DNA from: Verrucomicrobiaceae bacterium | GTDB taxonomy: Bacteria; Verrucomicrobiota; Verrucomicrobiia; Verrucomicrobiales; Akkermansiaceae | Reading direction: 5' to 3' | Assembly: GCA_027491155.1 (NCBI GenBank) | Contig: JAIXWR010000009.1 | Coordinates: 124,001-188,000, forward strand | Length of the DNA: 64,000 nucleotides | Part shown: piece after piece, positions 29,301 to 44,239 of the stretch | Numbering within the stretch: position 1 is the first letter of the stretch | Layout: every line of letters begins with the position of its first letter | Program-made: the position numbers and the translations under genes | The notes under the pieces: model-generated | Seen by the model: only the letters and a program-made list of their open reading frames with translations | What the model was told of the DNA's origin: nothing | Database searches by the model: none

Positions 29301-29386
29301 TCCCGATCCACCGGCCGTGATACGGGCTGTCGGTTTGCGCCGCGGGCGCAGTGAAAGAGTTTGTCGGGAGGGGTTCGGTGGTTTAT

Positions 29387-29433
29387 CCAAAGGCAATAGG
29401 TCTCATAGGTCCTATACGACCTATTGCCTTTGG
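29387..29433. repeat. Perfect 16-bp inverted repeat upstream of the four-helix gene
   Basis: CCAAAGGCAATAGGTC (29387-29402) and its exact complement (29418-29433) flank a 15-nt loop that itself contains ATAGGTCCTAT. It lies 32 bp before the start of the four-helix suffix gene and could be a cruciform, operator or transcript hairpin. It is much more AT-rich than its surroundings. Confidence 0.8.
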
Positions 29434-29464
29434 CATTCCTCACACCTCCGGCGACACTCCTCCC

Positions 29465-30037
29465 ATGTCAGACGACTCTCCCGGCTTCCTCCCCAAGGGC
29501 GGGAACTACCAAGAACTTCTCTCCTACCGGAAGGCCGAGATCATCTTCGACCTCACTTTCCGCTTCTGCGATCGCTTCCTGAAACAAGGGGACCGTACCA
29601 TCGACCAGATGGTGCAAGCCGCCCGCTCGGGAAAACAGAATATCGCCGAAGGCAGCAAGGCCTCGCTCACCTCCACCGAGATGGAGCTGAAGCTGACCAA
29701 TGTCGCCCGTGCGAGTTTGGAAGAGCTTCTGCTCGACTACCAGGACTACCTCCGGGTCCGCGACCACGTGGCCTGGGACAAGAACTCCAAGGAAGCGCTC
29801 TACGTCCGCCGCCTCGGAAAACTCCCCGACGAAAGCTACGAGACCTACCGCGCCTTCATGGACACCCGGCCGCCGGAAGTCGTCGCCAACATCGCCATCT
29901 GCCTGCTCCACCAAGCGAACTACCTTTTGGATCGGCAGATCCGGAGCTTGGAAAAGAGCTTCCTCCAAAAGGGCGGACTCCGCGAGAGGATGACCCGGGC
30001 CCGACTGGATCACAGGGACCGGAAGAAAAAAGAATAG
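29465..30037 (+). CDS. Four-helix-bundle suffix-domain protein
   Basis: The ATG at 29465 (MSDDSPGFLPKGGNYQEL) gives 190 aa. The body is all-helical: SYRKAEIIFDLTFRFCDRFL, RTIDQMVQAARSGKQNIAEGSKA, and LKLTNVARASLEELLLDYQDYL match the 23S-rRNA-intervening-sequence-type four-helix bundle. The additional C-terminal helix (ANIAICLLHQANYLLDRQIRSLEKSFL) is the 'suffix' found in a Verrucomicrobia/Bacteroidetes subset. It ends in a basic tail (RKKKE). These proteins are mobile in genomes and of unknown function. A perfect AT-rich inverted repeat lies just upstream. Confidence 0.88.
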   Translation: MSDDSPGFLPKGGNYQELLSYRKAEIIFDLTFRFCDRFLKQGDRTIDQMVQAARSGKQNIAEGSKASLTSTEMELKLTNVARASLEELLLDYQDYLRVRDHVAWDKNSKEALYVRRLGKLPDESYETYRAFMDTRPPEVVANIAICLLHQANYLLDRQIRSLEKSFLQKGGLRERMTRARLDHRDRKKKE

Positions 30038-30137
30038 GCCCGTAGCTCCTTTTCCCCTGCTGGCCGGGGGGATTCGACGCCTGGTGCCCACCACGGATCG
30101 TCCTCGAGGATGAGGTTTCCAATAGCGTGCCCCGCCC

Positions 30138-31334
30138 TCACATCCCGCCGAGGACGCCATCGAAATACCACTCCACGATCTTCCAGCCGCCGAACATCCA
30201 GCTCAAGGTGCCGAGGATGAGGAAAGGACCGAAAGGCAAGGGCCGGCCGAGGCCCACCCGCCCGAGCACCGCGGCGACGATGGCATAGACCGATGCCGCA
30301 AAGAGGCTGAAGAACACCCCGGTCCAGCCGAAGAAGGCCCCGATCGAGCCCATCAGGTGGACGTCGCCCATGCCCATCGCTTCCCGCGGGATCACGGCGC
30401 GCGGTGCCATGCCTTCGAGCGACTTCAACTCCTCGATCGGCACCTTGCGCCCGCCGGGCAGCTCCACCCCGTCCTCGCGGATGACCACCATCCCCGCCGG
30501 CACGCTTTCGCCGTTCACCCGCACCTCGGTGGCCTCGATCTCGAGGCGGTCGGTCTTGCGGAAGAAAATGTCCCACCATCCGGTGCGCTCGCCGTTCATC
30601 TCGAACCAGATCGGATCCTGGTCGTTCTCCGGCTCGATCAAGCGCCACGCAACCGGCGTCGGAAACTCCATCACCTTCTTGCCGAACATCATCTTGCCCA
30701 TCCGCACGATAACCCACAGCCCGCAGAAGCCGAAGATCCAGCCGATCACCGATTGCTTGATGCCGTCCGCCAGCAAGGGATCGCCGGATGCCCACAGCGC
30801 GAGGTCCGGCAGCTTCGGCCAGACGGCCGCCGCCGCGATCCCGGCGATGGACAAGGCGGTGGTGAACGAGGTCGGGATCACCATGTGCTCGGCATCGATG
30901 AAGGTGATCGAGATGAACAAGGCGGCCATGATCCACAGCGGCAGCAGCGCCGCCATTTCCAGCTGGAGGAAAGGCCCGAGGTTCAGCGAGGTGCGGAGGA
31001 AACCCCAGATCGCGGTGAACAGCAGCGCGGTCAGCAGCTCGACCGCGAAGTAGCGGAAGGCGATCGGCGCCTTGCAGTTCTTGCACTTCCCGCGGAGCCA
31101 CAGCCAGCTCACCAGCGGGATGTTCAGCCGCATCGGGATGTCGCCCTTGCACTTCGGGCAGAACGAGCGCTTCGGCTCGTTCACCGACAGGCCCAGCGGC
31201 ACGCGGTAGATGACGACGTTGAGGAAGGACCCGATGCACGCGCCGATCAGGAAGGCCGGCACGAACCACACCGGATGGGCAAGGGATGGGAAAATCTGGA
31301 TCAAGGTGGCGCCATTGAATCCGATTCTAACCAT
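30138..31334 (-). CDS. Prepilin peptidase (PilD/GspO-like) with a large insertion
   Basis: This inner-membrane aspartic protease cleaves type IV pilin or type II secretion pseudopilin leaders and usually N-methylates them. The 398-residue protein has the N-terminal domain IGSFLNVVIYRVP at 34-46, two CxxC zinc pairs (CPKC, CKNC at about 59-87), and catalytic Asp147 in FIDAEHMVIP and Asp324 in GMGDVHLM. The family is usually about 250-290 aa; the extra length is a soluble segment (about 218-318) between the two catalytic loops. Its start overlaps the stop of the YjdF-like gene by 8 bp, so the pair is one transcript. No pilin genes are nearby. Confidence 0.93.
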   Translation of the reverse strand: MVRIGFNGATLIQIFPSLAHPVWFVPAFLIGACIGSFLNVVIYRVPLGLSVNEPKRSFCPKCKGDIPMRLNIPLVSWLWLRGKCKNCKAPIAFRYFAVELLTALLFTAIWGFLRTSLNLGPFLQLEMAALLPLWIMAALFISITFIDAEHMVIPTSFTTALSIAGIAAAAVWPKLPDLALWASGDPLLADGIKQSVIGWIFGFCGLWVIVRMGKMMFGKKVMEFPTPVAWRLIEPENDQDPIWFEMNGERTGWWDIFFRKTDRLEIEATEVRVNGESVPAGMVVIREDGVELPGGRKVPIEELKSLEGMAPRAVIPREAMGMGDVHLMGSIGAFFGWTGVFFSLFAASVYAIVAAVLGRVGLGRPLPFGPFLILGTLSWMFGGWKIVEWYFDGVLGGM

Positions 31335-31959
31335 TTCGGAAATCCGAAATTTCCGCCCGGCGGATCCACGCCGCGGCGACCAGCGCCCCCGCGAAGTTCG
31401 CCACCAGGTCCCAGCCGGTGTTCTGGTAGTCGCCGATGTTGGTATCGGGCAGGAGGTGGGTGGCGATGAACTCCACCATCTCGTTGAAAGCCCCGAAGCC
31501 CATGCCCGCGGCCACGCAGAGCAGCAGGATCCCGGCGCTCGGCCGCACCGTCGTGCCGTCGGGCTCGCGCAGCACGGACTTCAGGATCTGCCAGCACAGC
31601 CAGGTGGTGATGCCGAAGCCGTAGGCATGGACGACGTGATCGTAGCGCAGCCGGTCCGGGATCAACCACCAGCTGTAGAGCAGCGCGTGCGATCCCTCGC
31701 GGCTCCAGCCCTCCGGGATCGGCATCAACCCGCCGGCCATGTGCATCAGGCCCCAGAGGCTGAAAGCCCAGAGCAAGGGCGCGCTGAGCCGGCACCTCCG
31801 GTGGACCGCGTAAATCGCCGGCACGAGCACCATCATCAGGCCGAGGTAGATCGGCCATTCACGGCTGCCGATCGATCGCGCGCCGATCGTCGCCAGCAGC
31901 ACGTAGGCCCCGGTGAAAACCAGAAGCGGCAGAAGTCGCGGACGGGCGGGGTCGTTCAT
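31327..31959 (-). CDS. YjdF-like (DUF2238) membrane protein
   Basis: The ATG at 31959 (MNDPARPRLLPLLVF) gives 210 aa with six or so hydrophobic helices. Family phrases are LWGLMHMAGGLMPIP, DRLRYDHVVHAYGFG with conserved His and Asp, and GFGAFNEMVEFIAT followed by NTGWDLVANFAGAL. These mark the DUF2238/YjdF inner-membrane family, whose function is not established. The last codons (EISDFRNG) come from a short run with 7-bp periodicity that also supplies the start of the downstream prepilin peptidase gene. Confidence 0.85.
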   Translation of the reverse strand: MNDPARPRLLPLLVFTGAYVLLATIGARSIGSREWPIYLGLMMVLVPAIYAVHRRCRLSAPLLWAFSLWGLMHMAGGLMPIPEGWSREGSHALLYSWWLIPDRLRYDHVVHAYGFGITTWLCWQILKSVLREPDGTTVRPSAGILLLCVAAGMGFGAFNEMVEFIATHLLPDTNIGDYQNTGWDLVANFAGALVAAAWIRRAEISDFRNG

Positions 31960-32034
31960 GAAGGCGCTTCCTCCGACCCTGACAGCCCGCCACCGCCCCG
32001 TCACCGGCAAAAGCACGCACCCGCCGGCGGTGCC

Positions 32035-33603
32035 TCAGCGCGGCATCCCGTTCTTCTCCATCAACTGCCGGATCTCCTGCTGGCCGAGGGCGCCGGACAC
32101 GATGAACACCTCGTCCAGGCCGCCGCGGAAAAAGCCGCCGTGACGGTTCTCTTTGGACCCGGCCCGGTAGCTGAGGTTCCGGCCCAGCCAGACACCGTGC
32201 GCGGAGTCATCGATCCTCGTGTCCAGTTCGTGAAGCGCGCGCCGCGAGATCGGCTCGAGCCGTCCGTCGAGATAGATGAGCACGTGCTTCCCGATGTCGG
32301 GCCGCGACGCCGGGTAAAGCACCACGGCCACGTGATGCCAGCGCCCGTCGCGCAGGTCGGTCGCCCCGACGATCTGCCCGCCATGGGCCCCGACCCGCAG
32401 GCGACCGAGCGGCCCGTCTTCCTCGAGCGGGTTGATGGAAATCTGCCACGCCCGCCCGAAGTCCGCCGCTCCCACGCTGCCCCACGAGATGATGCCGAAG
32501 CCTTCGCGGACGCTGAAGTCCTCGGGAACCTTCACCCAGAAGCTCACCGTCCGCGGCTCCTGCCCGCCGATGCCCGGGAAGGCGCTTTCCGCGTAGCCGC
32601 CCTTGCCATCGAACGCCGCCGCCGAGCCGAAAACCCCGGCCACCGTTTCAGGCATTCCGCCGTCATCCGCCGCCTTGAAGACCATGTCGTAAGCCCCGGG
32701 TCCGAAGCCGCCGACCTCCGCCCGATCGCGGCCTTCCCGCGCCGACTCCATCGGCCAGCGGATCCAGTCCGGTCGACCGCTCCGCGGCGGCGGCAGTTCG
32801 GTGTAGAACGAGCCGCCGTCGGTCTTGAAGCGCGTGCCATCGCCGCCGTCGAAGCGCAGGGCGTCGTCCTTCTTCAGGAGCACCTTGCGCCCGCCGTCCG
32901 GGATCGCCTCGACCTCGCCCGAGAGCACGTGGGTCTCCACCCGCTCGTCGCCGTCGACCGCCACCCCGAACTCCGTGCCGAGATCGATCACCGAGCCCTT
33001 CGGCGTTTCCACCCGGTAGCCGTGCCCGGCCGGTTCCACCTTCATCATCACCCGCCCGCGGTGGAGCCTCGACTCCATGCCGCTCACGAATTCGAGATCC
33101 GCCGGTCCTTCGACGATCATCCGGCCGCGACCGCCCATCTCCAGTTCCACCAGCCCGCCGTCGAAACGCAGCCGCGCGCCCGAACGAAGGACCGCCCCTT
33201 CCAACAGCGAAGTCCCGCCGGTCCACGACACGGTCTCCAGCCGGCGGACCGTGGCCACCCCGTCGGGCCGGACCATCAGCCAGGAAAGCCCGCCGATCGC
33301 CAGCACCGCCGCGATGGCCGTGATCCGCTTGCGCCACTGCTGCCTTTGGATCCGCCGGTTCACGCCCGCCAGGAAGTCGTCCTGATCCACCCGCCTCACC
33401 GCCTCCATCAGCCGCCCGTGCCGGCGCTCCGCGGAAAACTCGTCTTCCAAAGCCACGCCTAACAGCCCCTCGACCAGCGCGTGCCCGCCGAGCTCCTTCT
33501 TCGCCGCCGGATCCGCCGCAAGCCGCGCCGCGAGCGCCTGCCGCCCAGCCTCGTCGAGTTCCCCGGCCAGCAGCCGCGCGATGTCGTCCGGCTCGCCGCT
33601 CAT
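32035..33603 (-). CDS. FecR-domain protein with C-terminal LamG-like domain
   Basis: This 522-residue membrane protein starts with a short cytoplasmic anti-sigma-like part (LLAGELDEAGRQALAARLAADP), then one transmembrane helix (about 94-112, AAVLAIGGLSWLMV). A periplasmic FecR domain follows (about 140-240; TPKGSVIDLGTEFGVAVDGDE) and a LamG/concanavalin-like jellyroll (about 300-510; AAAFDGKGGYAE, VSFWVKVPE, RDGRWHHVAVVLY, GGLDEVFI). Its ATG at 33603 overlaps the sigma-factor stop by 4 bp. This points to a sigma/regulator pair in which the jellyroll may sense glycans; that role is inference. The layout is frequent in Planctomycetes and Verrucomicrobia. Confidence 0.9.
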   Translation of the reverse strand: MSGEPDDIARLLAGELDEAGRQALAARLAADPAAKKELGGHALVEGLLGVALEDEFSAERRHGRLMEAVRRVDQDDFLAGVNRRIQRQQWRKRITAIAAVLAIGGLSWLMVRPDGVATVRRLETVSWTGGTSLLEGAVLRSGARLRFDGGLVELEMGGRGRMIVEGPADLEFVSGMESRLHRGRVMMKVEPAGHGYRVETPKGSVIDLGTEFGVAVDGDERVETHVLSGEVEAIPDGGRKVLLKKDDALRFDGGDGTRFKTDGGSFYTELPPPRSGRPDWIRWPMESAREGRDRAEVGGFGPGAYDMVFKAADDGGMPETVAGVFGSAAAFDGKGGYAESAFPGIGGQEPRTVSFWVKVPEDFSVREGFGIISWGSVGAADFGRAWQISINPLEEDGPLGRLRVGAHGGQIVGATDLRDGRWHHVAVVLYPASRPDIGKHVLIYLDGRLEPISRRALHELDTRIDDSAHGVWLGRNLSYRAGSKENRHGGFFRGGLDEVFIVSGALGQQEIRQLMEKNGMPR

Positions 33604-34190
33604 GATTCGCTTGCCTCCATTTTCCGCTCCACGCAGTCCGCCAGCAGTTCGCGCAGCCGGTGCAGCTGCATCGTCAGCGCCGAGTATCCCCGGCCGCTCT
33701 CCGCCGCCATCTCCCGCACCGTCTTGCCCGTCACGTAGCGCCGGTCCAGCAGCTCGCGCGAGGGCCCGTCGATCTTTCCAAGGCACTCCCGCAGGGCCTC
33801 CAGCGCGCCGCCTTCGTCCGCGCCGGCCAGGAAGGATTCCGCGCCTTGATCGATCAGCACCTGCAGCTCGTCGTTGCCGCCGATCGCCTGCTCGCGGCGC
33901 TTGCGCAGGAAATTCCGCAAGTGGTTCACGGCGATCCCGCGCAGCCATCCCTCGAAACCCGACTCGCCGTTGAACGTGTGCACCCGGCGGAAGGCCGTGA
34001 CGAACACCTCCTGCGCCAGATCGTCCGCCGCCGCCCAGTCGCGGATGCGGGACCGGAGAAAGCCGCGCACCCAGCCCTCGTGGAGCCGCACCAGATCGCC
34101 GAAGGCATCCATCCAGCCCGGACCGCGCGCCTGCAAGCGGCGAAGCAGGTCGCCGGAAGGATCGCCCGGGGATTCGGAAGGAACAGCCAC
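33600..34190 (-). CDS. ECF-type RNA polymerase sigma factor
   Basis: The region 2 helix HEGWVRGFLRSRIRDWAAADDLAQEVFVTAFRR and region 4 LDRRYVTGKTVREMAAESGRGYSALTMQLHRLRELL are clear. I prefer the GTG at 34190, giving 196 aa, the normal ECF length. A further upstream GTG at 34313 would read through an inverted repeat. The gene overlaps the FecR/LamG gene by ATGA, so the two are coupled and the FecR protein is the likely regulator. The divergent gene at 34355 may be a target; its promoter region is shared. Target promoters cannot be predicted. Confidence 0.9.
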   Translation of the reverse strand: MAVPSESPGDPSGDLLRRLQARGPGWMDAFGDLVRLHEGWVRGFLRSRIRDWAAADDLAQEVFVTAFRRVHTFNGESGFEGWLRGIAVNHLRNFLRKRREQAIGGNDELQVLIDQGAESFLAGADEGGALEALRECLGKIDGPSRELLDRRYVTGKTVREMAAESGRGYSALTMQLHRLRELLADCVERKMEASES

Positions 34191-34340
34191 CGGGAGAAGT
34201 GTTCCGGGCGGGGAGAAGTGCCACAAGTTTTTCCACCGACGGCGAAATCCGTCTTCCCGATGCCGAGGAACCGGGATCGACCTCCGAAAGATTCCGGAAA
34301 ACAAATGTGTCACTTCTCCCCGCCCGGCACACTTCCCGGG
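34191..34340. repeat. Inverted repeat filling the sigma-factor / secreted-protein promoter region
   Basis: Arms 34191-34234 and 34296-34340 are imperfect reverse complements. Each holds two spaced copies of a GAAGTG-type core, and they share the exact 17-mer CCGGGCGGGGAGAAGTG. About 60 bp separate them. The element spans almost the entire gap between the proposed start at 34190 and the ATG at 34355, so both promoters must lie in or next to it. Confidence 0.8.
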
Positions 34341-34354
34341 AAACCCGGTCCTTC

Positions 34355-37300
34355 ATGCTCCGCCTCCTCGCCGCACCTGCCCTCGTCCTGTCGCTTCCCG
34401 CGGCGGAGCTGCTGGTGAACGCGGACTTCGAAACCCCGCCCTTCCCCGCACCCTGGACGTCTTCCGGCGGCACGGTGCAAGTCGCCGGACTGAACGGCAC
34501 CGCCACCGCGGCTCGGCTGCCCTTCAACACCGCCGCCTCGCTTTCGCAGGTCACCGCCACCTCCGCCGCGGACTTCACCTTCGACGTCTGCTTCCAAGTC
34601 CCCGGCATCAACGAGGCCCAGTCGTTCCGCATGACCCTGCTCGCCGGGTCGGCCGATGCCATCGACCTGCGGCTCGCCACCAGCGGCGCGCTGGAACTTG
34701 CCACCGCTCCCTCGATCTATCTGCCGCTCACCGCCATCGCGGACGGCAGCACCACCGCGATCCCGATCAACCAGAGCGTCAAGGTCCGCATCATCGGCCG
34801 CGGCTTCGGCACGCCCGCCGCCCGCTACGACCTGCTGTGGACCGCTCCTTACACCGGCGCCGCCGTGCCGCCGTTCACCCGTGCGGCGAACCATCTGACC
34901 GCATTCACCGGCGACGCCGCGAAAGCCGCCGCGCTCAACGGGGTCCGCTTCCAGCGCAACATCACCGCCGCGAACTCGTTCCTTGTCGACCAACTCTCGC
35001 TGCAGGACAGCGCCGCCGCGGGCATCGCCGCCACCCACCGGATCGTCCTCCCGCCGCCCGACAAGGTGGTCAACATCTCCGGGGTCTATCCGCACCTCGC
35101 GATGACCAACAGCCACCTCGAATGCGGCGTCGGCGCGGTGGTCCCCTGGGCCGGCAGGCTGTGGACCATGACCTACGGCCCCCACCTGCCGAACGGGTCC
35201 ACCGACAAGCTCTACGAGATCGCCCCCGACCTCTCGCGCGTCATCCGCCCGGAATCCGTCGGCGGCACGCCCGCCAACCGCTTCATCCACGCCGCGTCGA
35301 ACCAGCTCAACATCGGTCCGTATTTCATCGACGCCTCCCGCAACGTCCGCGTCCTCCGCCCGGCCGGCGCCACCACCGGCGTGATCCCCGGGCGCCTGAC
35401 CGCCAGCGCCGCGCACCTCGGACCGCTGCCCGCCACCGATCCCGCCTCCACGGTCATCGGCAGCGACCCGGCCCGCATGCTGATCTTCACCATGGAAGAC
35501 GGCGTCTACGACGTGAATCCGGCCGACCTCACCTACATCACCCGCTATCCCGACGTCCAGGGCACCGGCGACCGCTTCCTCTTCGGCTACCACGGCAAGG
35601 GCGCCTACACCGGCCAGGGCCGCTTCGTCGTCGCCAACAACGGCCGCCCGAACAACCAGGGCGTCCCGACCGGCGAGTCCGGCGTGCTCGCCACCTGGGA
35701 CGGCACCACCGTGCAAAGGAACGGCGGCGGCTACCTCGAAACCGGCGGAATCCCCTTCCACCAGTCCAACCCGGCGGCCGACGGCGCCGCACCCGCCGCG
35801 GCCCAGCCCCAGTTCCTCCACGGCTGGGAGCAGGTGAGCAAGACCCAGCACTGCGAGGTCACCGGACCAGGCGGCATCTACGGGAACTCCAGTAACAACG
35901 ACGCCGTCTGGTCCACCGGCTTCGACGCGAAGTCGGTCCTGCTCCACGTGATGGAGAACCGGCAGTGGAACCTCTGGCGGCTGCCGAAGGGCTCCTATTC
36001 CCACGACGGCTCGCACGGCTGGCACACCGAGTGGCCGCGCATCCGCCAGCTCGATCCCGCCGATCCGCAAAGCCCATTCCTGATGCACATGCACGGGCTG
36101 TTCTTCGATTTCCCGAAGACCTTCTCCGCCGCCAATTTCGCCGGACTCCAGCCGGTCTCGAGCTACTACAAGATGCCCACCGACTACTGCACCTTCGAAG
36201 GCCGCATCGTCATGGGCAAGAACGACGCCTCGCAGTTCAGCAACGCCTTCGCCCTGAAGAACCAGTCGAACCTCTGGTTCGGCACGATGGAAGACATCGC
36301 GGACTGGGGCCCGCCGTCCGGCCATGGAGCGGTCTGGATGAACGAAGCCGTCGCCGCGGACCAGGTCTCCGATCCTTTCCTCATCGGCGGCTTCCCGCAG
36401 CGCACGCTCCACCTCCGGAATCCCGGCGTCACCCCCGTTTCGATCGAAGTCCAGGTTTCCCAAGGCACCCACGCGTGGACCGCGGTCCGCAGCGTGGAAG
36501 TGCCGGCCGGCGGCTACGTCGCCGAGATCCTCAACGACCTCGCCGCGCCCTGGGTTCGGCTGAAAGCCGCCGCCGCCGGCAGCGACCTCACCGCCTTCTT
36601 CCACCTGGCCTCTCCCTACCCGCACGGCACCCCGGCCTCGGCGCACACCGCGGAGTTCGCCGCCCTCGCGGACATCCGCGACACCCGGTCGATGTCCGAC
36701 GGCATCATCCGCGTGATGAACGACGCCAGCCTGCCGCTCGAGTTCGCCTCCAGCCGCACCGCGGCCGACGGCTCCGCCGCGCTCCACCGCTACCACCGGA
36801 TCGGCGGCCCGATGGAACTCGCCGACACGGCCAATCCCGCCGCGGAAAGCGCGCTGCGGACCTCCGCCGCGTTGGTCAAGGAGTTCGGCTCCGACGCCGC
36901 CTCCGCCTGGCTCGAGGAAAGCGGCACGCGCTTCCGCCTGCCGAAGCTCGACCCTCTCTACGACGCTCCTTTCGCCGCCGGTTGGGCGCGCGGCATCCGC
37001 GAAACCGTGACCGAACGCCAGATGCTCAATTGCCACGGCACCTTCTACGAGGTTCCTCGTAGCAACTCCGGCGGCGCCCGCAAGATGCGCGCCCTGGCCA
37101 CCCACGGCAAACGCATCACCGACTTCGCCTCCTGGCGCGGCCTGCTGGTGCTCACCGGCGTGCTCGACGACGCGCCCGCCTCCGACAAGCTCGTCCGCAA
37201 TGCCGATGGAAGCGCCGCCCTCTGGCTCGGCGAGATCGACGACCTCTGGCGCATGGGCGAACCCCGCGGCAAAGGCGGCCCCTGGCTGGACACCGGGATC

Positions 37301-37960
37301 ACCGCCGGCACGCTTTCGGACCCCTACCTGATGTACGGCTACGATCGCAAGGAGCTCCGCCTGTCCTCGACCGCCGCCGCCACCCTCACCGTCGAAGTCG
37401 ACTTCCTCGGCGACAACACGTGGTCGGTTTACCGCGACTTCCCGCTGGCCGCCGGGGAAAGCCTCACCCACCTGTTCCCGGCCGGTTTCCACGCCCACTG
37501 GGTCCGGCTGAAATCGAGCGCCGCCACCACCGCCACCGCGCAGTTCACCTACGGCCCGGCCGATGCCCGCGACGCGTTCCTCGACTGGGCTCGCGACCGG
37601 GGGCTGCCCACCGCTTCAGGCCGCGCCGCCTTGACCGCGGCCGACTCCGATGGCGACGGGCTGGACGAGCTCGGCGAGTTCGTCTTCGGCACCGATCCCC
37701 GTGCCGCGGATGCCAATCCCCTCCGCGTTGCCGACGGCGAAGCCGGGATCGTCGTCCGCGACCTGCAGCCCGCCGACCGGATCACCTGCGTCTTCGAATC
37801 GTCCGAAACGCTCGCCGGCACCTGGACGCCGCGGCCGGACCTCGAATCGGAAGCCGTGGATCAAAGCGGCGTGCCCGCGGGCTTCCGCCGGGTCCGTTAC
37901 GCGCTCGAACCCGGCCACCCGCGCTTCTTCATCCGAGCCCGCGCCATTCTTTCTCCCTGA
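34355..37960 (+). CDS. Large secreted protein, duplicated-module family, with CBM-like and TSP3-like ends
   Basis: The ATG at 34355 gives 1201 aa with a short signal peptide (LLAAPALVLSLPAAE). Residues of about 20-230 form a beta-rich N-terminal domain starting ELLVNADFETPPFPAPW, like carbohydrate-binding modules. The core (about 240-1085) is shared with the next gene: ISGVYPHLAM, ECGVGAVVPWAGRLWTMTYG, IRPESVGGTPANRF and EVTGPGGIYG. It contains two similar half-modules, each with SDPF/YL...G...LHL/RLS. The C-terminus has a calcium-type repeat (DSDGDGLDELGEFVFGTDP) and ends RFFIRARAILSP. I do not recognise the core family; it may be a beta-propeller that binds or processes glycans. It diverges from the ECF sigma factor. 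Confidence 0.85.
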   Translation: MLRLLAAPALVLSLPAAELLVNADFETPPFPAPWTSSGGTVQVAGLNGTATAARLPFNTAASLSQVTATSAADFTFDVCFQVPGINEAQSFRMTLLAGSADAIDLRLATSGALELATAPSIYLPLTAIADGSTTAIPINQSVKVRIIGRGFGTPAARYDLLWTAPYTGAAVPPFTRAANHLTAFTGDAAKAAALNGVRFQRNITAANSFLVDQLSLQDSAAAGIAATHRIVLPPPDKVVNISGVYPHLAMTNSHLECGVGAVVPWAGRLWTMTYGPHLPNGSTDKLYEIAPDLSRVIRPESVGGTPANRFIHAASNQLNIGPYFIDASRNVRVLRPAGATTGVIPGRLTASAAHLGPLPATDPASTVIGSDPARMLIFTMEDGVYDVNPADLTYITRYPDVQGTGDRFLFGYHGKGAYTGQGRFVVANNGRPNNQGVPTGESGVLATWDGTTVQRNGGGYLETGGIPFHQSNPAADGAAPAAAQPQFLHGWEQVSKTQHCEVTGPGGIYGNSSNNDAVWSTGFDAKSVLLHVMENRQWNLWRLPKGSYSHDGSHGWHTEWPRIRQLDPADPQSPFLMHMHGLFFDFPKTFSAANFAGLQPVSSYYKMPTDYCTFEGRIVMGKNDASQFSNAFALKNQSNLWFGTMEDIADWGPPSGHGAVWMNEAVAADQVSDPFLIGGFPQRTLHLRNPGVTPVSIEVQVSQGTHAWTAVRSVEVPAGGYVAEILNDLAAPWVRLKAAAAGSDLTAFFHLASPYPHGTPASAHTAEFAALADIRDTRSMSDGIIRVMNDASLPLEFASSRTAADGSAALHRYHRIGGPMELADTANPAAESALRTSAALVKEFGSDAASAWLEESGTRFRLPKLDPLYDAPFAAGWARGIRETVTERQMLNCHGTFYEVPRSNSGGARKMRALATHGKRITDFASWRGLLVLTGVLDDAPASDKLVRNADGSAALWLGEIDDLWRMGEPRGKGGPWLDTGITAGTLSDPYLMYGYDRKELRLSSTAAATLTVEVDFLGDNTWSVYRDFPLAAGESLTHLFPAGFHAHWVRLKSSAATTATAQFTYGPADARDAFLDWARDRGLPTASGRAALTAADSDGDGLDELGEFVFGTDPRAADANPLRVADGEAGIVVRDLQPADRITCVFESSETLAGTWTPRPDLESEAVDQSGVPAGFRRVRYALEPGHPRFFIRARAILSP

Positions 37961-37992
37961 CCCGACAACTCCCGCCAACCGAACACCGCACC

Positions 37993-40428
37993 ATGAACCC
38001 GCGCCTCTTCGCCGCCCTGCTTCTCACCAGCCCGCTTTCCGCCGAGCCCCGCCAGATCTCCGGCATCTATCCGCACCTCGCGATGTTCAATGACGAGGGC
38101 GAATGCGGCACCGGTGCCGTGGTCCCCTGGGCCGACCGCCTGTGGATCGTCACCTACGCACCCCACCAGCCGAAGGGCTCCTCCGACAAGCTCTACGAAA
38201 TCACCCCGGACCTCCGGCAGATCATCCGCCCGGAATCCATCGGCGGCACCCCGGCCAACCGGTTGATCCACGACGAATCGCAGCAGCTCTTCATCGGACC
38301 TCACGCCATCGCCGCAGACGGCACCGTCCGCACCATCCCCTACGCCAGCATGCCCGGCCGCCCGACCGGCAATGCGCGCCACCTTTCCGACCCCGCCGGA
38401 AAGATCTACTACGCCACGATGGAGGAAGGCGTCTACGAGGTCGACGTCAAGACGCTGCAGGTGACCGAACTCTTCGCCGACAACCAGGGACAGATCGGCC
38501 ACTACGAGGACAACGCCAAGGGCCGCCGCCTCGCCGGACTTCCCGGCTACCACGGCAAGGGCCTCTACTCCGGCCAGGGCCGCCTGATCTATGCCAACAA
38601 CGGCGAAGCCGGCGGCGCCGCGAAAACCAACCCCGCCACGCCTTCGGGCGTCCTCGGTTCGTGGGATGGAAAATCGGACAAGTTCGAGGTGGTCCGCCGC
38701 AACCAGTTCACCGAAGTCACCGGACCCGGCGGCATCCACGGCAGCAAGAACCCGGCCACCGACCCCGTCTGGTCGATGGGCTGGGACCACCGTTCCCTCA
38801 TCCTGATGCTGCTCGACGGCGGCAAGTGGCACGCCTACCGCCTGCCGAAGGGCTCCCACTCCTACGACGGCGCCCACGGCTGGAACACCGAGTGGCCGCG
38901 CATCCGCGAGATCGGCGAGGGCGACACGCTGCTCGCCACCATGCACGGCACTTTCTGGAAATTTCCGAAGACCTTCTCCGCGAAGAACAGCGCCGGCATC
39001 GCCCCGCGCTCGAATTACCTCAAGGTCATCGGCGACTTCGCCCGCTGGAACGACCGTGTGGTCTTCGGCTGCGACGACACCGCCAAGTCCGAGTTCCTCA
39101 ACAAGCGCAAGGCCAAGGGCGAGATCGCCGCGCCCCGCTCGCAGTCGAACCTCTGGTTCGTCGAGCCCGCGACCATCGACAAGCTCGGCCCGGCCATCGG
39201 CCGCGGCGCGGTCTGGCTCGGCGATGCCGTGAAAGCCGGCGCCCCCTCCGACCCCTTCCTCTTCTCCGGCTACACCCGCCGCGGCGTCCACCTCCACCAT
39301 GAGGGTTCCGCCCCGCTGACCTTCTCCTTCGAGATCGACCGCGAAGGAAACGGCACCTGGACCCCGCTCGCCAAGACCACCGTGCCCGCCGGCGAGCACC
39401 GCTGGTTCGCCTTCACCCCGGATCAGGCCGGTGCCTGGATCCGCATCACCCCGGACGCGGATGCCGCCAAGGTCACCGCGTTCTTCCAGTGCTCGAACTC
39501 CGACGAACGCAGTACTTCCCCCGCGGGAATCTTCAACGGCCTCGCCAAGGCAGGCGACACCCGGGTCAGCGGCGGGCTCATCCGCGCCCGCGACGGCAAG
39601 AGCGGCAATCTCGCCTTCGCCGCCATCGATGCCGACGGCAAGGACACCGGCTGCTACGAACTCGACGGCGATCTTAACCTCAAGCCGACCGCCGAAAGCG
39701 CGCTTCACCAGCACACGCTCCAGAACACGAAGATCCCGGTCGGCATCATCCAAACCGACGCCGCTTCGGTGCTCTTCATCGACGACGACGGCAAGCGCTG
39801 GCGTCTGCCGAAGGGCGACCCCGCCCTCGACAAGACCGGGGCCCTCGGCGAAAGCCGCGCCGCCCGCGAAGTCGCCACCGAGCGCGACCTCTTCCACGCC
39901 CACGGCACCTTCTACGAACTTCCCGCGAACAACGCCGGCGGCTTCGCCAAGGTCCGCCCCGTCACCACCCACAACTTCCGCATCCACGACTACTGCTCCT
40001 TCCGCGGCCTCTTCCTGATGACCGGCATCTCCGCCGACGCCCCGGCGGACAATCCCCACCTGATCCGCTCTTCCGACGGCAAGGCCGTACTCTGGGCCGG
40101 CGCTATCGACGACATCTGGTCCATGGGCAAGCCCCGCGGCCAGGGCGGCCCGTGGAAGGACAGCGCGGTGAAGGCCGGCGAGGTCTCCGATCCCTACCTG
40201 ATGACTGCCTACGACAAGAAGTCGCTCGTCCTCACCGCCGACAAGGACGCGACCCTCACCGCGGAGATCGACCTCACCGGCGACGGCGATTGGGTCACCT
40301 ACCGGAGCTTCCCCGTCAAAGCCGGCACGCCGGTGAACCACGATTTCCCCGACGGCTTCTCCGCCTACTGGATCCGCTTCAAGTCCGGCCACGACGCCAC
40401 GGTCAGCGCCCAGCTCGACTACCGCTGA
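37993..40428 (+). CDS. Large secreted protein, paralogue of the preceding gene
   Basis: This 811-residue protein starts with a signal peptide (LFAALLLTSPLSAEP) 32 bp after the previous stop, so the two form a transcription unit. It covers only the shared core: ISGIYPHLAMFN, ECGTGAVVPWADRLWIVTYAPH, YEITPDLRQIIRPESIGGTPANRL, ATMEEGVYEVD, GYHGKGLYSGQGR, EVTGPGGIHGSKN, LPKGSHSYDGAHGW. It lacks the N-terminal CBM-like and C-terminal TSP3-like parts of its neighbour. The second half repeats the module (FYELPANNAGG, GAIDDIWSMGKPRGQGGPW, SDPYLMTAYDKK). No catalytic signature is recognised; periplasmic or extracellular location is likely. Confidence 0.85.
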   Translation: MNPRLFAALLLTSPLSAEPRQISGIYPHLAMFNDEGECGTGAVVPWADRLWIVTYAPHQPKGSSDKLYEITPDLRQIIRPESIGGTPANRLIHDESQQLFIGPHAIAADGTVRTIPYASMPGRPTGNARHLSDPAGKIYYATMEEGVYEVDVKTLQVTELFADNQGQIGHYEDNAKGRRLAGLPGYHGKGLYSGQGRLIYANNGEAGGAAKTNPATPSGVLGSWDGKSDKFEVVRRNQFTEVTGPGGIHGSKNPATDPVWSMGWDHRSLILMLLDGGKWHAYRLPKGSHSYDGAHGWNTEWPRIREIGEGDTLLATMHGTFWKFPKTFSAKNSAGIAPRSNYLKVIGDFARWNDRVVFGCDDTAKSEFLNKRKAKGEIAAPRSQSNLWFVEPATIDKLGPAIGRGAVWLGDAVKAGAPSDPFLFSGYTRRGVHLHHEGSAPLTFSFEIDREGNGTWTPLAKTTVPAGEHRWFAFTPDQAGAWIRITPDADAAKVTAFFQCSNSDERSTSPAGIFNGLAKAGDTRVSGGLIRARDGKSGNLAFAAIDADGKDTGCYELDGDLNLKPTAESALHQHTLQNTKIPVGIIQTDAASVLFIDDDGKRWRLPKGDPALDKTGALGESRAAREVATERDLFHAHGTFYELPANNAGGFAKVRPVTTHNFRIHDYCSFRGLFLMTGISADAPADNPHLIRSSDGKAVLWAGAIDDIWSMGKPRGQGGPWKDSAVKAGEVSDPYLMTAYDKKSLVLTADKDATLTAEIDLTGDGDWVTYRSFPVKAGTPVNHDFPDGFSAYWIRFKSGHDATVSAQLDYR

Positions 40429-40564
40429 GGAAAGGCCACGCCGCCTGCCGTCACGACGAAGGTCTCACCACGCGGATCAGCCGCCGGTCCGCTTGAGGAA
40501 CTTCTCATTCGAGTAGATGCGCGCCATCAGGATTCTACCCGTTACCCACAGCTTCCGAGAGATC

Positions 40565-40797
40565 GATGTCCCAACGGGACTCCAATCACGAAGCCCGGGG
40601 TTGCGAGGGACGAGCTACCCCGGGTCATTTAGGCAGAGCAAATCCTACCTCGAAGAGGTTGTGGACGATGGGGGCCCGCAACTCCCGGAGAACCGCTCTT
40701 GCTCAACACCTTCGGCGTAGGAACACCGACTGCGGCTACCTGGGGTAGCTCGTTCCTCGCAACCCCGGGCTTTGAAACGCAGTCCCCTTGGGACAAC
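40565..40797. repeat. Large inverted-repeat element (MITE/REPIN-like)
   Basis: Arms 40565-40624 and 40738-40797 are near-complementary over about 58 bp, sharing the core GCCCGGGGTTGCGAGG and GAGCTACCCC. Inner segments also pair (TCCTACCTCGAAGAGGTTG near 40643 with CAACACCTTCGGCGTAGGA near 40703). Almost the whole 230 bp could therefore fold as one long hairpin. It fills the gap between two convergent genes, and no gene is seen in it. Confidence 0.85.
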
Positions 40798-40811
40798 CTA
40801 AACCGCCCCGC

Positions 40812-42116
40812 CTACAACCGCCCCGCCGCCTTGATGTCGAGGTAGCGGTTCGCCAGGGCCACCGGGAACTGCTGCGCCGGCACGTCCAGCGTCAGGATCC
40901 CGAAGCCTTGCAAGGTGGCCAGCACCTCGGAGCGCTCCGCATCGTAACGCTCCGCCGCGGCGAAGCGCAGCGCACCGCCGAAGTCCTCGATCGGCCGCGT
41001 CCTCGAATCCTCGACCGATCGCTCGCGCAGGCTGGCCAGCATCACGAGGTGCCGCGAACGCAGCAGGCGCATCGCCGGCACCAGCTCCGAAGCGTCCTCG
41101 CCGCGCAGGTTCGTCATCACCACCACCAGCGCCCGCCGCTTCTGGCGGGCCAGCAGCAGCTCCGCGGCTTCCGAGAAATCACTCGGCTCCGGCGTGGTCC
41201 GGTAGTCGAAGAGATGGTTCAGCAGCACCGACATCGAGTGCGATCCCTTCACCGGCGGCAGCCAGCGCCGCGTCCCGCCGAATGCCTGCACCCCGACCTG
41301 GTCGCCCTGCCGCAGCGCGACATACGAAAGCAGCAGCATCGCGTTCAGGCAGTGGTCGAACTGCGGCAGCTCGCCGTCCATCGCCCGCATCCGGCGACCG
41401 GTATCGGTTAGAAACACCACCGTCTGGTTCCGCTGCTCCTGGAACTCGCGGCTGATCAGCATCGCCCGCCGCGAGGTCGCCTTCCAGTCGATCTGCGAAA
41501 AGGGATCGCCCTCGCGATACTCGCGCAACTGGTGGAAGTCCCGGCTGCTCCCGGCGAAGGATTTCCGCACGATCCCCATCTGGTCCTGCCGCGCTTGCAT
41601 CGCCAGCAGCGCGAAACGCAGCACCGGCTCGTAGTCCGGATACACCTTCGCCTCCTCGGCCACCCCGGCCCGGTCCTTCTTGCGCCAGAGTCCCATCGGC
41701 GAATCACGCCGCAGGTGGATCCGGTCGAACCCCGCCATCCCCCGCTCCAGGATCCGCACCGCATGGGTCACCCGCGCCTTGCCACCCGGCGGAATGTTTC
41801 CCGTCCACGGCATCTGCTCCGCCTCGGCGCCCGCAGGAATGCCGTCGAACACCTCCACCTTCGCCGGCAGACGACCCGGATTCACGATCTCCAGCCGCAC
41901 CTCGCCCGCCTCCCCCACCGCGAAGCGCCCCGGCAAGCGCCGCGTCACCTCCACCTTCTTCAATTTCGCCAGCGTCACCGCATCGAACAACGCCACCACC
42001 GCAAAGCCCGCACCGCTCATCCACCAAGCCGGCACCAGATCGCGCCACACCGAGGCCGCGAGCCCGAACAAGGCCCACCCCACCACGATCCCCAGCGCTC
42101 TCCCGGTCGGACTCAT
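40812..42116 (-). CDS. DUF58-domain protein (last gene of MoxR operon)
   Basis: This protein has 434 residues from the ATG at 42116 (MSPTGRALGIVVGW). Two N-terminal membrane helices precede a beta-rich region and the DUF58 core, marked by REYREGDPFSQIDWKATSRR followed by a von Willebrand-like fold (TVVFLTDTGRRM). DUF58 proteins accompany MoxR AAA+ ATPases and are thought to help maturation or assembly of protein complexes at the envelope. An alternative ATG at 42128 arises from a heptad repeat and adds four residues (MDEG). It is the sixth and last gene in the operon that starts at 47364. Confidence 0.92.
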   Translation of the reverse strand: MSPTGRALGIVVGWALFGLAASVWRDLVPAWWMSGAGFAVVALFDAVTLAKLKKVEVTRRLPGRFAVGEAGEVRLEIVNPGRLPAKVEVFDGIPAGAEAEQMPWTGNIPPGGKARVTHAVRILERGMAGFDRIHLRRDSPMGLWRKKDRAGVAEEAKVYPDYEPVLRFALLAMQARQDQMGIVRKSFAGSSRDFHQLREYREGDPFSQIDWKATSRRAMLISREFQEQRNQTVVFLTDTGRRMRAMDGELPQFDHCLNAMLLLSYVALRQGDQVGVQAFGGTRRWLPPVKGSHSMSVLLNHLFDYRTTPEPSDFSEAAELLLARQKRRALVVVMTNLRGEDASELVPAMRLLRSRHLVMLASLRERSVEDSRTRPIEDFGGALRFAAAERYDAERSEVLATLQGFGILTLDVPAQQFPVALANRYLDIKAAGRL

Positions 42117-42125
42117 CCCTTCATC

Positions 42126-42153
42126 CATCTACCATCCACCATCTAACATCTCT
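42126..42153. repeat. Heptad repeat between moxR-like and DUF58 genes
   Basis: CAT recurs every 7 bp at 42126, 42133, 42140 and 42147 (units CATCTAC, CATCCAC, CATCTAA, CATCTCT). It lies in the 39-bp gap between two operon genes and creates an extra in-frame ATG for DUF58. Confidence 0.85.
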
Positions 42154-42155
42154 TT

Positions 42156-43141
<986 letters not shown>

Positions 43142-43145
<4 letters not shown>

Positions 43146-44239
43146 GAGAGAGATAAGTGAATTTTCTGCAAGTCGGCCAGCACCCGGGTGAACGACGCCG
43201 CGTCGCCGGGATGCTCGTGGGTCATTGCCCGCTGCGCGCGTTCCCGGGTGACCCCGGCGCGCTGGGCGATCCATTCGAAAAGGTCGCCATCCCGGTGGCC
43301 CACCGCCGCCAGCCGCTGGGCGCGATCCAGCACCGAGTCGCGCAGCGGCCGCAGCAGCGCCGCGCCCTTGTCGAGCCGCCATTGGAAGTCGCCGAGCGCC
43401 TCGAGGTGATGGTCGTAGTCGCGCAGCGACGAGGGGGCCTCCGCCCGCCGCAGCGGACCGAAGCGCGGCATGTTCTTCCACAGCCAGAACACCGTCACCG
43501 CCAGCAATCCCGCCAGCGCCGGCCAGCCGTGCCGCCACAGGAGCGTCCACAGCGAAAGCGCGGCGTCGCGCACGATCACCACGCCGCCCTCGTAGGGCGA
43601 GGCCTCCACCAGCGCCAGCAGCAGCGCGGCATGGTCGTGATCGGCGATGTAGCGGTTGCGGAAAGGCCGCGCGTCGGCCATCACCGTCAGCAAGCCTTCC
43701 CCGTATTCGACCTGCCCCATCAGCCGCCGCTTTCCGCCGGAGTCCGTCACGCCGATGCCCGACTCCGCGAACACCTCGTAGCGCTCGCCCGCGGCACGCA
43801 AGGCCTTCGCCTCGATCTTCTCGCCGCGCTCGACCGTTAGACCGGTCTCGCCGAACCAATCGCCCAGCGCCTCCGGCACCGGCTCTTCATCGCCGTCGAA
43901 GCGCATCCGGAAGGTCGACCAGTCGTCGTGATAGGACTCCGCATGCTCCACCAGGCAGATCAGGTGCCCGCCATCCGCCACCCACTCCCCCAGCTCGCGG
44001 ACGTAGGCTTTCGTGGAAATCACCGACGCAGGGACGATCGCCACCGCCAGGTCGTGATCGAGCCCCGGCCACCCCGGCTTGCTCACCACCGTGTAGCCGT
44101 TCTTCTCGAGAAAGCGGCCCGCCGCCAGATACGCGTCGAGCCGCGCCTTCCCCTTGTAGCCGATCTCGCGCTTGCGGGTGGTGTAGCCGCCGCAGCCGGC
44201 GAGCAGGGCGCAGAGCAGCATCACGACCAGCGCCCTCAC
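43142..44239 (-). CDS. DUF4350-domain lipoprotein
   Basis: The GTG at 44239 overlaps the upstream stop (GTGA) and gives 365 aa: MRALVVMLLCALLAGC, a lipoprotein signal. The N-terminal half is a GATase1-like DUF4350 fold (RFLEKNGYTVVSK, LAVAIVPASVISTKAYVRELGEWVADGGHLICLVEH). A transmembrane helix follows (HGWPALAGLLAVTVFWLWK), then a helical cytoplasmic tail (LEALGDFQWRLDKGAALLRPLRDSVLDRAQRL). The family is a standard member of RDD/SpoIIM/DUF4129/MoxR/DUF58 operons and has no proven activity. If the lipobox is used, the topology with one later helix is unusual. Confidence 0.88.

Follow-up and report, generated by a model that had tools for sequence, protein, structure and literature searches.

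Gene content and organization of the locus

The window, a stretch of 64,000 nucleotides from a Verrucomicrobiaceae bacterium, encodes an ECF sigma factor and a FecR-type anti-sigma factor bearing LamG, divergent from two predicted secreted proteins, here called A and B. All four genes claimed in an earlier note for 33600-40428 were found in this arrangement, the FecR-LamG gene lying just outside the start given there. The gene content, homology, internal duplication, predicted fold, clade-specific linkage and shared site described below were all obtained by computation. The features are:

32035..33603, minus strand: FecR-type transmembrane anti-sigma factor with a C-terminal LamG (ConA-like lectin) domain, 522 aa (Pfam)
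33600..34313, minus strand: ECF sigma factor of the TIGR02989 (Sig-70_gvs1) family (profile score, homology, tree)
34199..34225, minus strand: promoter-like site before the ECF gene, TGTGGCACTTCTCCCCGCCCGGAACAC (motif comparison)
34306..34332, plus strand: promoter-like site 22 bp 5' of the ATG of A, TGTGTCACTTCTCCCCGCCCGGCACAC (motif comparison)
34355..37960, plus strand: protein A, 1201 aa, predicted secreted (signal peptide by eye)
35072..37552, plus strand: core of A, residues 240-1066, homologous to the whole of B (42% identity)
37553..37957, plus strand: C-terminal extension of A with the calcium-binding-like repeat DSDGDGLDELGEFVFGTDP (sequence reading only)
37993..40428, plus strand: protein B, 811 aa, predicted secreted (signal peptide by eye)
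38056..39192, plus strand: B residues 22-400, predicted seven-bladed beta-propeller (AlphaFold2, fold comparison, conservation)
39196..39498, plus strand: B residues 402-502, jelly-roll domain 1, CBM-like fold (predicted structure, fold comparison)
39499..40131, plus strand: B residues 503-713, blade-like second copy, a partial propeller duplicate of unmatched fold
40132..40425, plus strand: B residues 714-811, jelly-roll domain 2 (duplication, predicted structure)

The ECF protein scores 136 bits against TIGR02989 (NCBIfam trusted cut-off 124.55), covering model positions 2-158 of 158. Because homology to its closest relatives begins near residue 46, its true start probably lies near 34184, about 43 codons into the listed open reading frame, rather than at the GTG at 34313. 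The gene for the anti-sigma protein overlaps the ECF stop codon, and its product consists of an N-terminal anti-sigma region, a single transmembrane segment at about residues 93-112 (by eye), a FecR domain (Pfam, 31.6 bits; cut-off 24) and a LamG domain at residues 333-511 (Laminin_G_3, 39.9 bits; cut-off 27.6). Homologues of this protein that are linked to A/B retain LamG. Protein A has an N-terminal extension, the propeller/jelly-roll core and a tail of the DxDxDG type; the extension, labelled CBM-like in the earlier note, has no match in Pfam, and the TSP3-like end is recognized by reading the sequence DSDGDGLDELGEFVFGTDP. An Rfam scan of positions 30000-44000 gave no match. At 29351-30037 on the plus strand, the window also encodes a four-helix-bundle protein with a TIGR04258 suffix domain and weak similarity to 23S rRNA intervening-sequence proteins.

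Distribution of the shared core

The core that A and B were said to have in common is evident from the alignment of A residues 240-1066 with all of B, and it falls outside known families, as had also been proposed: a profile of 55 sequences has no curated match, and searches of Pfam, NCBIfam and PDB sequences with the single proteins, the 55-member profile and compact forms returned nothing significant for the core. In the genome that carries the window, the only matches to B are B itself and A. Relatives of the core occur in 66 of 195 genomes of the same bacterial family and in 74 of 388 genomes of the phylum, and a scan of genome contigs gave at least 581 contig-level matches, from which a PVC-wide set of 80 loci was kept. 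The 80 belong to Verrucomicrobiota, Planctomycetota, Kiritimatiellota, Lentisphaerae, Omnitrophota and Bryobacteraceae, the majority at 57-67% identity; a further full-length relative, at 52% identity, is carried on a plasmid of the Bacteroidota member Spirosoma oryzicola. On these sequence matches, the core family is widespread yet unnamed in Pfam or NCBIfam.

Some genomes of the phylum encode a core version of about 465 aa that is unduplicated and has no evident signal peptide (by eye). Six such compact loci have a divergent gene immediately upstream, which is of the LacI type in all three of the six that were scanned individually; a tally of the remaining compact-locus neighbours gave four more LacI members, and a GH2 beta-galactosidase, a sulfatase, SASA and GH20C are also found nearby.

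Predicted fold and conserved residues

An AlphaFold2 model of B built with 55 sequences (pLDDT 92.3, pTM 0.92) consists of a propeller, a jelly-roll, a blade-like stretch and a second jelly-roll. The internal duplication that had been claimed for the core is confirmed by comparison of residues ~252-501 with 585-811 (HHalign probability 99.9, E 3e-34, 28% identity), and in B it is partial and detectable at the profile level. Residues from about 18 to 400 match seven-bladed propellers with Z of 17-19 (best 19.1). Residues 402-811 modelled alone (pLDDT 95.7) form two jelly-rolls with CBM-like matches (YomS, Z 10.9; CBM6, CBM22 and CBM36, Z 7-8), and a fold search of this part gave no match for the middle stretch 503-713. 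A viral fold library returned only generic propeller and tail-protein matches.

The propeller has twelve polar residues that do not vary among the long, A-type and compact forms (E37, R90, H93, R123, H130, E144, H187, K189, H295, E300, R303 and D348), and this invariance of charged and histidine residues holds down to ~32% identity between forms. The polysaccharide lyases PL24, PL25 and PL42 (formerly GH145) have a seven-bladed propeller, the fold here predicted for residues 22-400, and in propeller lyases residues of the His and Arg types serve as base-acid and neutraliser (PMC8377490); both types are among the invariant residues here, a likeness at the level of residue type. Unlike those lyases, A and B show no sequence match to them and carry extra jelly-rolls and a partial duplication. 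PL24, PL25 and PL42 are absent among the fold matches listed for B, with the seven-bladed propeller itself predicted, and in the fold comparison the scores of lyases are equalled by those of generic propellers. BNR_4 (PF15892), the model to which the PL42 enzyme FoRham1 belongs, matches neither B (E 1) nor, at E 0.05, any of the 55 family members; because membership was sought in this way and not found, no lyase family is claimed for A/B. Virginiamycin B lyase, YncE and the sensor propeller of BT3049 match residues 22-400 with Z of 17-19, at ~10% identity and at the level of the fold only.

Linkage to the ECF sigma factor and a shared promoter-like site

Recurrent linkage of the core to ECF/FecR-LamG pairs holds within the same bacterial family (about 20 loci) and fails beyond it: a related ECF gene is nearby in only 1 of the 80 PVC-wide loci, so the core does not inherently come with the pair. 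By gene neighbourhood, the ECF link is real and confined to one bacterial family. Since genomes encode 13-49 ECFs of the gvs1 type, the identity of the linked ECF matters. In a tree, the A/B-linked ECFs form one clade (support 98/95) separate from ~30 sampled paralogues; two sequences within it, L258 and L259, had been entered as 'other', and their positions identify them as the linked ECFs of genomes G082 and G056.

A TGTG[T/G]YAC...ACAC site, with the elements TGTGTCAC and ACAC, precedes both the ECF gene and A. Two divergent copies of TGTGKCA-N15-VACAC lie in the ECF-A intergenic region, and the whole 5.7 Mb genome has three; the third (C34:141990-142016, 44 bp before a fumarase-like gene) was rejected as a meaningful site, being within chance expectation (~2.6, a base-composition estimate). 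Over ten relatives a strict pattern has two matches, both 5' of B. Other ECF genes of the same genome have no upstream site except for one score-9 match, judged to be coding sequence. With one mismatch or fewer, the site precedes 12 of 24 ECF-linked A/B genes versus 177 of 3120 background regions (5.7%; p 2e-9), the patterns having been tuned on some of the genomes later counted; PVC-wide, it precedes 4 of 83. A dyad search of 20 ECF upstream regions, from which the window was excluded, ranked GTGT-N18-ACAC first (8 of 20 observed versus 0.06 expected, p 3e-15), and this search alone is exempt from the tuning, though it does share lineages. The dyad is self-complementary, 4 of its 8 matches facing away from the ECF gene, and in divergent pairs some of the signal upstream of the ECF gene comes from the site that faces A/B being read in reverse. 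The dyad search took the place of an EM motif search on ECF upstream regions, which had converged on A/T-rich noise.

A/B copies situated away from an ECF gene retain the site in three genomes (G082, G131 and G114) that have the clade ECF elsewhere, and several clade members have no clear copy upstream of the ECF gene. A cultured relative, Haloferula sp. BvORR071, has B together with the site on contig NZ_BATP01000046. The GTYACTT part of the site resembles GGAACTT and the spacing is plausible; the -10 element is ACAC, not CGT, the canonical ECF boxes being AAC (-35) and CGT (-10) (PMC8103513). Occurrence of the same promoter-like motif before the ECF gene and A/B, as in an autoregulated ECF regulon, is consistent with a promoter of this ECF; because the site is nearly symmetric (GTGT...ACAC), it could instead be an operator. 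Small PEP-CTERM-like or CBM-like secreted proteins are encoded between the ECF gene and A/B at six loci (L048, L056, L065, L079, L080 and L081), and those of L079 and L081 may join the regulon because the motif near the ECF gene faces them.

Proposed function of the locus

Neighbourhoods of the core in other bacteria are, judging from their predicted genes, of the polysaccharide-utilization type. Among the nearest open reading frames PVC-wide (n=104; raw counts) are nine sulfatases, five FAD_oxidored proteins and four AraC regulators, together with sugar oxidoreductases, SASA and GH127. Sulfatases are abundant in the PVC superphylum. A sulfatase gene also lies between the ECF gene and B in two genomes of the same genus. 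The Spirosoma oryzicola relative starts 45 bp downstream of a SusC/SusD pair, made up of RagB/SusD and its TonB receptor. Verrucomicrobial loci have no evident SusCD pair, and none was seen next to the genes of the window. Because the family sits in sugar-degradation neighbourhoods in other bacteria, A and B probably represent glycan-acting proteins of an undescribed kind, controlled by a dedicated sensor.

We slightly favour a self-contained, sensor-controlled glycan-response module with A and B as undescribed propeller proteins, working as follows: the LamG domain that the membrane-spanning anti-sigma factor exposes to the periplasm would bind a polysaccharide or its fragments; binding would free the dedicated ECF sigma factor; the freed sigma factor, as comparative sequence analysis suggests, would use one promoter, present in two copies, to drive both its own gene and the divergently oriented A-B operon; and exported A and B would act on the glycan through the predicted seven-bladed propeller with its invariant His/Arg/Glu/Asp set, while the CBM-like jelly-rolls flanking the propeller would hold the polymer. 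In other phyla, the core would be kept, with LacI, AraC, a histidine kinase or SusCD-linked control taking the place of the switch. The glycan-sensing and binding system envisaged in the earlier note agrees with the glycan context, the lack of a curated family, the ECF clade and the shared site; binding, however, is not the sole reading of A and B. We consider pure binding less likely than catalysis, of lyase or hydrolase type, since the unduplicated form, which has no evident signal peptide, shares the same invariant residues and adjoins LacI-type regulators. More tentatively, and at somewhat less than even probability, A and B may belong to a carbohydrate-active enzyme family, as yet undescribed and built of a seven-bladed propeller plus jelly-roll, in which the ancestral single-copy form is intracellular; A and B would be its secreted and partly duplicated branch, captured in one verrucomicrobial family by a LamG-sensing ECF switch of its own.

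Surface glycan-binding proteins are usually encoded directly after SusC/SusD, the position that the Spirosoma relative occupies, and A and B might be non-catalytic binders of this kind serving import under the same ECF control, with the propeller as a lectin and the jelly-rolls as CBMs. The CBM-like folds and the extra N-terminal extension and calcium-binding-like tail of A fit such a role, but proteins with no evident signal peptide, such as the compact relatives, would be of little use at the surface, and the invariance of charged and histidine residues across the forms also argues against it; we consider it unlikely, at perhaps one chance in four. Less probable still is a reading in which the signal sensed by the ECF/FecR-LamG pair is not a glycan but, for example, a self protein or the state of the envelope, with A and B as structural surface proteins. 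FecR systems classically answer protein-relayed signals, PEP-CTERM-like proteins intervene between the ECF gene and A/B in some relatives, and LamG, with 36 matches in this genome, is common and not glycan-specific; yet the neighbours found in different phyla (sulfatase, LacI, SusCD and sugar oxidoreductase) are hard to account for on that basis. Finally, ECF/FecR pairs could be so common, at 13-49 gvs1-type ECFs per genome, that their adjacency to A/B is accidental and the repeated site unrelated. The ECF tree and the promoter data strongly disfavour chance adjacency and led us to reject it as very improbable: the linked ECFs are one clade, the site common to the ECF gene and A/B is specific, and unlinked A/B copies retain it.

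In the favoured module, with LamG as the presumptive glycan sensor, the regulatory pair resembles FecI/FecR systems in that an ECF and a single-pass anti-sigma partner with a FecR domain are encoded side by side. Unlike those systems, it has LamG fused to FecR as a possible direct sensor, no adjoining TonB receptor, and an apparent autoregulation, suggested by the site before the ECF gene, that is usually absent from FecI-like systems; that FecI-like ECFs are mostly not autoregulated (PMC8103513) counts against the favoured reading. The literature searched contained no description of ECF/FecR-LamG control in Verrucomicrobiota and no study of what such pairs sense in the PVC superphylum. Because neither Pfam nor NCBIfam names the family, which has at least 581 relatives in several phyla, one component of whole sets of sugar-degradation loci has gone unread. 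A testable fold, invariant pocket residues, a minimal form of ~465 aa without a signal peptide, and a predicted promoter and sensor are now available for it, giving a concrete route to what one of the many ECF/FecR-LamG pairs of the superphylum senses.

Two further observations concern related regulators on the same contig. About 10 kb before the window (G000 C31:111620-114336), a second gvs1-type ECF lies near FecR and LamG matches and, by domain content, is possibly another ECF/FecR-LamG pair. Within the window, a FecR-domain match occurs at 2461-2745 on the minus strand (G000:C31:126461-126745) in a long reverse-strand open frame.
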